This document shows positions 40,355 to 43,107 of a stretch of 64,000 bases of DNA, piece by piece (positions within the stretch are counted from its first letter, which is position 1; each line of letters starts with the position of its first letter). The position numbers were made by a program, and so were the translations under genes. This stretch comes from Massilia violaceinigra. GTDB taxonomy: Bacteria; Pseudomonadota; Gammaproteobacteria; Burkholderiales; Burkholderiaceae_D. Where the stretch lies: contig NZ_CP024608.1 in assembly GCF_002752675.1 (NCBI RefSeq), positions 2,170,001 through 2,234,000 of the forward strand. The letters run 5' to 3'. Under the pieces are notes generated by a model that ran no database searches, was not told the DNA's origin, and saw only the letters and a program-made list of their open reading frames with translations.

Positions 40355-40489
40355 ACGTTAGAATCGCCTGCGGCATGGGGAAAGTTGTAAGGAACTGAAA
40401 AGCGCGCGCGGTAATCGCACGGCCGGCTTTACAATCGCCCCCGAGCTGGCAATTCCGGTTTCACTTCCATATTCTCAAGGAGATTCACG

Positions 40490-40768
40490 ATGAACAAACG
40501 TCAAGCCCTGATCGCAGCCGCCCTCGCCGGCATGTACGCGGTATCCTCCGGCGCGGCCGCGCACGAACCCGGATCGATGGCCAAGGTCGACAAGGCCGAG
40601 AAAGAGAAGTGCTACGGCATCGCCAAGGCCGGCCAGAACGATTGCGCCAGCGCCAACGGCTCGCATTCGTGCTCGGGCCAGTCGACCGTCGACAAGGCGC
40701 CGGAAGAGTGGAAATACGTGGCCAAGGGCACTTGCGAAAAAGCCGGCGGCAAGCTGACCGGCAAGTAA
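40490..40768 (+). CDS. bufA1: Bufferin-type RiPP precursor (DUF2282)
   Basis: 92-residue precursor with an N-terminal Sec signal peptide ([24 protein letters not shown] as two parts) and a core with four Cys at 41, 52, 61 and 82 in the DUF2282 pattern ([37 protein letters not shown]). In characterised bufferins the partner MNIO enzyme converts core Cys to thiooxazole groups, and the exported peptide binds copper. AAGGAG lies at 40477-40482. GGAACT at 40391-40396 might be an ECF-sigma -35 but no convincing -10 was found. A three-copy 10-bp repeat spans the stop codon and leads into the enzyme gene. Confidence 0.88.
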
Positions 40769-40789
40769 GGGCAAGCAAGGGCAAGTAAG
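40760..40789 (+). repeat. Three 10-bp tandem repeats between bufA1 and the MNIO gene
   Basis: GGCAAGTAAG (40760-40769), GGCAAGCAAG (40770-40779) and GGCAAGTAAG (40780-40789). The first contains the bufA1 stop codon and the last provides the only Shine-Dalgarno-like purine stretch before the GTG at 40792. Confidence 0.85.
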
Positions 40790-40791
40790 CT

Positions 40792-42456
40792 GTGACGGGC
40801 GGGGCTTTACCGGTCGATCTTCCAGCCGGTCCCGCCTCGCCGGGCGCCGGTGTCGGCTTGCGCGCCCCGCATTACCGCCAGTTTCTCGAGCAGCGGCCCG
40901 CGGTCGGCTGGCTTGAGGTTCATACCGAAAATTTTCTCGACCGCGCGGGCTGGGACTGGCATGTGCTGCAGGAACTGCGCCGCGATTATCCCATCAGCCT
41001 GCATGGCGTCGGTCTCGGACTGGGCTCGGCGCGCGGCTTTTCATCTTCCCATCTGGAACGCGTGTGCGCCCTGGTCGAGCGGGTCGAGCCCATGCTCGTG
41101 TCCGAACACCTGTGCTGGGGCGCCATCGCCGACCGCCAGCTCAACGACCTCTTGCCCATGCCGCTCAGCCGGGCTGCGCTCGACCTGCTGTGCCAGCGGG
41201 TGGAGCAAGTGCAGGACCGGCTGCAACGCCGCATTTTGCTGGAAAATGTCTCCACTTACGTGCGGTTTCGCGACGATGCGATGAGCGAGGCCGAATTCAT
41301 GGCCGAGCTGGCCAGCCGCACCGGCTGCGCGCTGCTGCTCGATGTGAACAATCTCTACGTCAATCAGTGCAACCACGGCGAGGACGCACTGGCGGCGATC
41401 GCGGCCATCGCGCCCGGCAGCGTGGGCGAAATCCACCTGGCCGGCCATCTGGTGACGCCGCAAGCCGTGATCGACCATCATGGCGACGTGGTGGCCGAGC
41501 CGGTGTGGGCGCTGTACCAGGCGGCGCTGGCGCGCTTCGGACGCTTGCCGACCCTGATCGAATGGGATACCGACGTGCCCGCGCTCGACGTGCTTCTGGG
41601 CGAGGCGCGCCGTGCCCAGCAAATTGCCAGCGTGTATCCGCTGCCGGACGCCGCCAACCCCTGGCGCGGCCGGCACGCCCAGCCGCTGGCATCGGACTAT
41701 CTGGCCGCAACCCAGCAGCAGTTCGCGGCGGCCCTGTTCGACCATGCCGGGGAGGGCGCCGCGCTGGCGCAATTGAAGGGCGACGCCAACACGCACCGCT
41801 TCGGCCTGTACCGCGGCAACCTGACCGTTACCTGGAACAAGACCTTGTCGGCGGCCTGTCCCGTGCTGCGCCAGCTGGTCGGCGAGGAATTTTTCGGCGG
41901 CCTGACGCGAGCTTACGGCATGGCCCACCCCTCGCTTGATGCCGACCTGAACCGCTTCGGCGCCGGCTTCGCGCGTTTCCTCGACGGTTTTCCCCACATT
42001 GCCGATTATCCTTACCTGCCCGACATGGCGCGCCTGGAATGGGCCTTGCACCGTGCCCATTACGCGCCTGATGCCGACCCCATCGGCGCCGACGCGCTCG
42101 CCGTCCTCACGTCCGAGGCCTTCGAGAACGCGCGCTACGCGCTCCATCCCGCCTGCAGTCTGATCGCGTCGCGCTGGGCGGTAGTGCCGCTGTGGCAGGC
42201 GCATCAGCCGGACAGCGGCGTCGACTTTCCTTCAGCCATGGATTGCCCGAGTGCAGCTCTGGTGGCGCGCCCGCGCTGGAAGACGGAACTGGTGGCGCTG
42301 AGCCCAGCGCATGCCGGCGCCCTGGCCGCCCTGGCCGGCGGATATACGATGGGGGAGGCGCTCGATGCCGCGTTCGCCCTCGACGAGCAATTCGATATCG
42401 GGGCGCATCTGGCGCAGTGGCTGGCGCTGGGCATCCTGCTGGCGCCGCCCGGCTGA
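40792..42456 (+). CDS. bufB: Fused MNIO (DUF692) enzyme and DUF2063 partner (BufB-BufC fusion)
   Basis: 554 residues in one uninterrupted frame. Residues about 20-290 are an MNIO/DUF692 TIM-barrel iron oxidase with ligand-type motifs: VHTENF (His44, Glu46), SLHGVG (His71), SEHLCWG (His106), LENVS (Glu151), [11 protein letters not shown] (Asp184, Asn187), NQCNHG (His195), EIHLAGH (Glu213, His215), DHHGD (228-232) and IEWDTDVP (Glu257, Asp259). From about 304 onward is DUF2063 ([40 protein letters not shown]), normally a separate BufC subunit that presents the precursor, then about 150 residues more. GTG start 23 bases past bufA1. Confidence 0.9.
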
Positions 42457-42585: not shown

Positions 42586-43107
42586 ATGTCCATGAGCGCT
42601 GATCAAGCAATCGACGAATACCTGAGCAATGGCAATACCATTACCACCGCGGTAGGAACCGTGCTGCTATCCCCGGAAGCGCGGCGGGCGATCTACAAGC
42701 GCCTGGTCAATGAGCCGGCGGCACCCTACCACGTCCTGCTGACCCAGATGCTGGCGGAAGAAGTGAAGTTCCGCACCTGGATATCGGAAGAGATCGTGCA
42801 GGACGACATGAATTACTACGAAGGCATCTACCAGTGCGCCTTCCTGCTCTACCGTGTCGGCGATGTGCGCGATACCCTGCCGCTATGGGAGGCCAAGTAC
42901 ATCAATATGGATGTGGGAAGTTCGATGGGCGCCGAGTATTTTGTCGGTGCCGGGCTGGAGCAGACCCTGGCATTCCTGGCAAGCTCGCCGGCTCCGCAAG
43001 CGGCTGAGATTGCGGAATATCTGCACGGCTGGTTCGACCAGCCGGGCGCCATTACCTGGCAAGAAGCATGGGAGCGGGAACGCGCGTCGAATATAGCCTG
43101 CGCCTGA
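42586..43107 (+). CDS. Hypothetical protein downstream of the bufferin locus
   Basis: 173 residues, helical and acidic (QMLAEEVKFRTWISEEIVQD, YQCAFLLYRVGDVRDTLPLW, FLASSPAPQAAEIAEYLHGW), reminiscent of HEAT-like or immunity-type proteins but no family assigned. Two ATGs (42586 and 42592) are possible. No Shine-Dalgarno is visible, while TATAAT (42557-42562) lies just upstream, so the mRNA leader must be very short. It therefore seems to be transcribed separately from bufA1-bufBC, 129 bases away. Confidence 0.65.
   Translation: MSMSADQAIDEYLSNGNTITTAVGTVLLSPEARRAIYKRLVNEPAAPYHVLLTQMLAEEVKFRTWISEEIVQDDMNYYEGIYQCAFLLYRVGDVRDTLPLWEAKYINMDVGSSMGAEYFVGAGLEQTLAFLASSPAPQAAEIAEYLHGWFDQPGAITWQEAWERERASNIACA

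Follow-up and report, generated by a model that had tools for sequence, protein, structure and literature searches.

A bufferin-type locus with a probable single-chain MNIO and PME-type 1 maturase in Massilia violaceinigra

The window, a 64,000-nucleotide stretch of the M. violaceinigra genome, very probably contains a bufferin-type biosynthesis locus with a self-contained maturase, in which the MNIO enzyme and its partner are held at 1:1 in a single chain that arose from adjacent bufB and bufC genes, probably several times. The two open reading frames lay exactly where the original prediction had placed them (40490-40768 and 40792-42456), and its central claim, that the MNIO enzyme and the DUF2063 partner are one protein, was confirmed by two Pfam domains above cut-off in a single 554-aa frame. 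The features of the locus are as follows.

40386..40414, + strand: candidate ECF-sigma-like promoter (TGTAAGG, 16 bases, CGGTAA)
40490..40768, + strand: Buf1-type precursor gene with a DUF2282 domain (92 aa, PF10048)
40490..40561, + strand: putative Sec-type signal peptide at residues 1-24, presumably the leader (cleavage site placed by eye)
40610, 40643, 40670 and 40733, + strand: precursor Cys codons (Cys 41, 52, 61 and 82)
40792..42456, + strand: fused maturase BufB-BufC, MNIO plus PME-type 1 (554 aa, GTG start)
40843..41628, + strand: MNIO domain, a TIM barrel, residues 18-279 (PF05114)
41629..41691, + strand: linker, residues 280-300 (from dN/dS and variable length)
41692..42129, + strand: DUF2063 helical part, residues 301-446, Pfam core 307-397 (PF09836 and helices of the model)
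42157..42429, + strand: probable RRE-type domain, residues 456-546 (from the AlphaFold2 model and the dN/dS of residues 398-549)

The precursor and the fused maturase

The precursor matched PF10048 in the Pfam scan (86.3 bits; cut-off 22.4), and its four Cys were read directly from the sequence. Its N-terminus has a positive start followed by a hydrophobic stretch and was judged by eye to be a signal peptide, so that the predicted DUF2282 precursor with Cys 41, 52, 61 and 82 stood. The NCBIfam BufA2 model NF050166 reached 29.8 bits on the locus, below its equivalog cut-off of 60. In Buf1, it is the two central Cys that are modified, and the outer pair is linked as a disulphide (PMC12452194); by analogy, Cys52 and Cys61 of the window precursor would be the modified pair and Cys41 and Cys82 the disulphide pair. 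The stop codon of the precursor gene and the GTG start of the maturase gene, adjacent on the plus strand, are separated by a 23-base gap.

In the maturase, PF05114 matched residues 18-279 (334.1 bits; cut-off 25) and PF09836 matched residues 307-397 of the same frame (68.7 bits; cut-off 27.2). Models for all three domains named in advance, DUF692, DUF2282 and DUF2063, thus scored above cut-off at the locus. The NCBIfam model MNIO_BufB (NF050167) scored 359.9 bits, above its curated equivalog cut-off of 310, and the TIM barrel and the conserved metal-site His/Glu/Asp/Asn of the MNIO superfamily were present. The HvfC model NF050145 aligned to residues 308-476 with 31.7 bits, below its equivalog cut-off of 142; judged by sequence score, the partner half is related to the HvfC family but is not filed as HvfC. 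The closest homologue among the matches listed was 97% identical and carried the name Massilia pseudoviolaceinigra.

The AlphaFold2 model of the fusion had a mean pLDDT of 92.4 and a pTM of 0.88, and nearly all of the partner half was at a pLDDT close to or over 90. Some 150 residues beyond the DUF2063 core had been called unexplained, a description that probably does not hold. PME-type 1 proteins are mostly 250-260 residues long and consist of DUF2063 plus an RRE-type domain (PMC12452194), and the RRE fold runs in the order of three strands and then three helices (PMC12710340). The model shows strands at 456-460, 487-492 and 499-503 and helices at 505-515, 520-530 and 536-546, with one extra short helix (464-470) after the first strand. 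Because of this order of elements, the modelled segment most likely corresponds to the RRE domain found in BufC/PME-type 1 proteins in general. The MNIO half of the model fitted TglH and MbnB in a fold comparison that covered residues 14-284, the barrel having filled its list, so that the absence of 3dee from this list does not speak against a match; a sequence search of the partner half against the PDB gave no match even at E 10.

Distribution and origins of the fusion

A homologue search with the fused protein gave 3033 sequences above threshold, and all of the 120 listed carried both Pfam domains at lengths of 538-578 aa. The named loci are the best 80 of 159 genome places, a choice that, with the fused protein as the query, favours fused ones; a frame open for 520 aa or more spanned the match in 80/80 of them, and all 78 with a distinct MNIO sequence were fused by HMMs built for this analysis. 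Among six close relatives (15 pairs), dN/dS was 0.087 for the MNIO domain, 0.22 for DUF2063, 0.14 for residues 398-549 and 0.88 for linker residues 280-301. By these sequence ratios, both halves are under purifying selection and the linker is nearly neutral, as for two working domains on a free tether. Across the 81 fusions compared, residue 279 and Gln308 are 15 to 78 residues apart, and Ala and Pro are the residues seen most often in between. No sign of a kept internal start for a separate BufC was found: an in-frame ATG/GTG lay 4-14 codons before Gln308 in 32/81 fusions and was absent from 49/81, inside the range of five control stretches (2/81 to 72/81).

The original prediction had contrasted the fusion with known bufferin loci, in which BufB and BufC are separate; the survey of fused and split forms showed that it is not peculiar to this locus. 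Of 245 genomes of the host's family, 131 matched at E 1e-60 or better, and at least 81 of these carried a fused frame by our own count from the matches listed. In 74 of the 81, a single match spans the MNIO and partner parts; in 3, a pair of matches shares an uninterrupted frame; and in the other 4, the fusion was recognised by HMM in the retrieved DNA, 2 of these being truncated where the contig ends. A stop codon is read through in four of the 74 single matches, of which G056 (locus L039) was checked and proved to be fused. Across the order, 196 of 399 genomes matched and at least 13 were fused, 7 of these outside the host's family, and across the phylum, 145 of 398 matched and at least 2 were fused, both from the host's family. 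The fusion is common in the host's family and rare across the phylum.

A record titled Bifidobacterium breve MAG (L119) carries an Oxalobacteraceae-like fusion and is probably a mislabelled or contaminated assembly. Genome G339, assigned to a different family, has a fusion of 71% identity on a contig of 11.9 kb (C75, L037) and a split pair on contig C14 (L155), and its fusion reflects either transfer or contamination.

A second MNIO protein of 476 aa is encoded in the M. violaceinigra genome outside the window (L163:5194-6624, minus strand; C1, about 5445693-5447123), adjoining an R2K ATP-grasp gene and a DUF2310 gene. It has a sub-threshold C-terminal DUF2063 match (22.9 bits), which the Pfam scan at E 0.001 did not show. 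Among its 1409 homologues, the 120 listed were 425-550 aa long with PF05114 only, some being labelled Cyanobacteria or Arthrobacter. To judge from sequence, it may represent a further large class in which a partner-like domain is fused on.

Two trees were built, one of 62 rows from the concatenated MNIO and partner domains (among them 12 of the 78 distinct fused sequences from the named loci, the rest being selected) and one of 138 rows from the MNIO domain only (16 of the 78). In the 62-row tree, the main fused clade comprised 21 rows (support 100/99) and was joined next by the split loci L166 and L167 (100/96), whose pairing with each other was weak (90/57). Seven changes between the fused and split states were needed in this tree, as they were throughout the 5-95% range of the bootstrap trees, and eight in the 138-row tree, six of them forced by well supported branches; such counts cannot tell gain of the fusion from its loss. 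With the groups named after the tree had been seen, one origin of all fusions was rejected (AU p 8e-78), and constraining the main clade together with L174 and L175 gave p 0.013. If the split state is ancestral and L174 and L175 share the main-clade fusion, lost by L166 and L167, the trees suggest that about six separate fusions probably occurred. Under those assumptions, the candidates are probably the Oxalobacteraceae fusion, L173, L147, L159, L148/L150/L176 and L151. Both domains scored above the Pfam cut-off in L147, L148, L151, L159, L173 and L174. Cys-rich, mostly Buf2-like ORFs were seen by eye upstream of the fusion in L148, L150, L151 and L176, and the fusion probably arose beside Buf2-like precursors as well.

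The split gene pairs indicate how such fusions could form. The frame of bufC differed from that of bufB in 94/101 split pairs, and the bufC start overlapped the bufB stop in 84/100, often by 8 bases, the start taken being the one nearest the bufB stop, a choice that favours overlap. Since the two genes mostly lie in different, overlapping frames, a small frame change can fuse them. Locus L166, read by eye, has the order bufA-bufB-bufC-doxX with bufB and bufC overlapping. Separately, L186, L187 and L205 gave matches that extend over the MNIO and partner parts by reading through a single in-frame stop, and were classed as split; from their sequences, bufB and bufC seemingly share a frame there and are perhaps one step from fusion. 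Locus L168 (genome 48% complete) looked split, but its break falls inside the MNIO part; it was read as a damaged sequence, kept in the 138-row tree and among the 101 split pairs, and left out of the 62-row tree.

Precursor conservation, gene neighbourhood and regulation

A precursor was found 5' of the fusion in 77/80 named loci by a fixed search pattern, and the four core Cys were kept in 78/78 aligned precursors (those 77 and the window's), the pattern itself having demanded the first two. By HMM, a DUF2282-like precursor was present at 94/99 fused and 74/101 split places. A fifth Cys inside the signal peptide occurred in 75/78 aligned precursors and also in split L166 and L167; in the window precursor, it is replaced by Tyr16 (codon 40535-40537). 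In 610 fused pairs at 70-80% MNIO identity, the first 20 precursor residues were 70% identical, the enzyme 76% and the following stretch 51%. This conservation of the signal peptide, near the level of the enzyme and above that of the following stretch, is in line with a preliminary finding, reported by the authors of PMC12452194, that the signal peptide is part of the recognition sequence. No special leader was seen in the fused systems: signal-peptide identity did not clearly differ between fused and split loci, at 51% (92 pairs) versus 46% (108 pairs) for 60-70% MNIO identity and 70% versus 77% (only 10 split pairs) for 70-80%.

No DoxX gene adjoins the fusion, as predicted; the two DoxX matches of the genome lie millions of bases away. 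The suggestion that a missing DoxX accompanies the fusion fell, because DoxX was matched by 25/117 ORFs downstream of fusions in 73 of the 80 named loci, and a tie between fusion and DoxX loss was rejected. Additionally, a 173-aa ORF 3' of the fusion (42586-43107, plus strand) had no Pfam match and 10 homologues, and in L066-L068, L079 and L081 a relative of it takes the position that DoxX has in other loci. The predicted lack of a sigma/anti-sigma pair was likewise upheld, with no such domain in the seven ORFs scanned at 38.7-43.5 kb (genes further out were inspected by eye), and no NrsF was found in the genome.

Upstream of the precursor, the window carries a candidate promoter with TGTAAGG at -104 and, correctly spaced after it, CGGTAA, the corresponding -10 element of relatives being CGACTA; the window's version has one copy in the genome. 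Upstream regions of 220 bases were scanned at 124 of 168 precursor-hit places, where a start could be recognised and sequence of that length was available. TGTAAGG occurred in 36/89 fused and 7/34 split regions versus 0.74 and 0.5 in shuffles, and was absent from 53/89 fused ones, while TGTAAGG-N14-18-CGACTA occurred in 24/89 and 4/34. Several Duganella and Janthinobacterium relatives have, by eye, other upstream sequences. The relatives' TGTAAGG-N16-CGACTA resembles in layout the Caulobacter sigmaF element GTAACC-N16-CGAA (PMC3511200); the sigmaF form TGTAAC[CG] was not enriched (0/89 fused and 1/34 split regions). A sigma factor acting on the locus from elsewhere in the genome is possible. 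The fifth signal-peptide Cys of most relatives and the CGACTA of many are both missing at this locus, so that regulation or recognition may differ here.

Proposed mechanism, alternatives and known systems

In the proposed mechanism, the partner half would grip the signal peptide of the precursor, the iron centre of the MNIO half would use O2 to oxidise Cys52 and Cys61 to 5-thiooxazoles, and the Cys41-Cys82 disulphide would form after Sec export. By analogy with Caulobacter, from which the copper function is carried over, the product would then buffer periplasmic copper. With the partner joined to the enzyme in one chain, a 1:1 complex would need no assembly, and the partner-dependent active iron state would always be within reach. 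Adjacent and mostly overlapping bufB and bufC would have fused by a frame change, probably several times.

A further reading, possible but somewhat less likely than not, is that joining MNIO to PME1 is a repeatedly selected remedy for a weak, rate-limiting BufB-BufC complex, securing the active iron state and capturing the signal peptide in cis before Sec, beside both Buf1 and Buf2-like precursors. For oxazolin, weak binding between HvfB and HvfC led the authors to an artificial fusion, which, according to their 2026 preprint (PMC13419390), gave more product and more of the mixed-valent diiron centre than the co-expressed pair. This makes a functional gain of the natural fusion plausible, though unproven, and lends indirect support to its proposed self-sufficiency. 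It is also possible, though less likely than not, that the fusion is instead a neutral by-product, formed easily from overlapping genes and persisting without functional gain. The frequent overlap (in a count whose choice of start favours it) and differing frames of split pairs, the nearly neutral linker of variable length and the split L166 and L167 beside the fused clade are all compatible with such an origin, but the roughly six independent fusions that an ancestral split state would imply, together with the fusion being widely kept within one family, speak against it.

That the same chemistry yields a product for another metal or stress than copper is unlikely. Related operons are known as gold-induced (PMC12452194) and as part of the Caulobacter sigmaF heavy-metal (chromium) regulon (PMC3511200), and an ECF-like element precedes many relatives; Caulobacter Buf1, however, is reported to chelate copper and to improve growth under copper excess (PMC12452194). 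A decaying or re-purposed partner half beside an MNIO half working alone is very improbable: constraint on DUF2063 is weaker than on MNIO, but ratios of 0.22 and 0.14 still mean strong constraint, the partner half is predicted with high pLDDT, and the HvfB reaction gave no product once HvfC was omitted (PMC13419390). An error of sequencing or assembly joining two frames, which the original prediction had raised against itself, is practically excluded by the two-domain relatives with their long frames and HMM-fused status.

The nearest characterised system is Caulobacter bufferin 1, whose genes CC3254-CC3257 encode DUF2282, DUF692, DUF2063 and DoxX proteins (PMC3511200, PMC12452194). It shares with the window a DUF2282 precursor with four Cys, a BufB-type MNIO and a DUF2063 partner; its signal peptide and ECF-type promoter element resemble the putative signal peptide of the window precursor and, in layout, the candidate promoter element. 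In Caulobacter, BufB and BufC are described as separate and lie beside sigF and its negative regulator, whereas the window has one chain, no adjoining DoxX and no genomic NrsF. The engineered HvfB-HvfC protein likewise places MNIO before a PME1 partner in one chain (PMC13419390), but it is laboratory-made, has no linker and acts on the oxazolin precursor, whereas the window protein is natural, with a linker of about 20 residues and a Buf1 precursor. MovX of Vibrio has no separate partner and carries an RRE or winged-helix domain fused to the C-terminal end of its MNIO (PMC13419390, PMC12452194); unlike the window protein, it acts on a C-terminal Asn, and the available text of these sources mentions no DUF2063 in it. 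Natural MNIO-nitroreductase fusions join MNIO to another enzyme, not to its partner (PMC12452194).

The same domain order, with DUF692 N-terminal to DUF2063, was counted in 1 of 216 DUF2063 proteins in 2009, in the paper on the NGO1945 structure, the available text of which neither names nor interprets that protein (PMC2954202). BufB and BufC are treated as separate in the available text of the landscape paper (PMC12452194), and bufferins, oxazolin and their relatives have been proposed as one class, the captophorins (PMC13097082). A search of the open-access literature, with the original bufferin papers outside its scope, found no account that treats naturally occurring MNIO-PME1 fusions as a class.

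As a discovery at a single locus the fusion is modest, and as a class it is useful. Single-chain enzymes may ease structural work with bound precursor, which would reveal how a signal peptide acts as leader. Natural fusions can also help to clarify what the partner protein does in MNIO chemistry: with many of them, close split relatives (L166 and L167) and several origins, the effect of joining the two proteins becomes testable.
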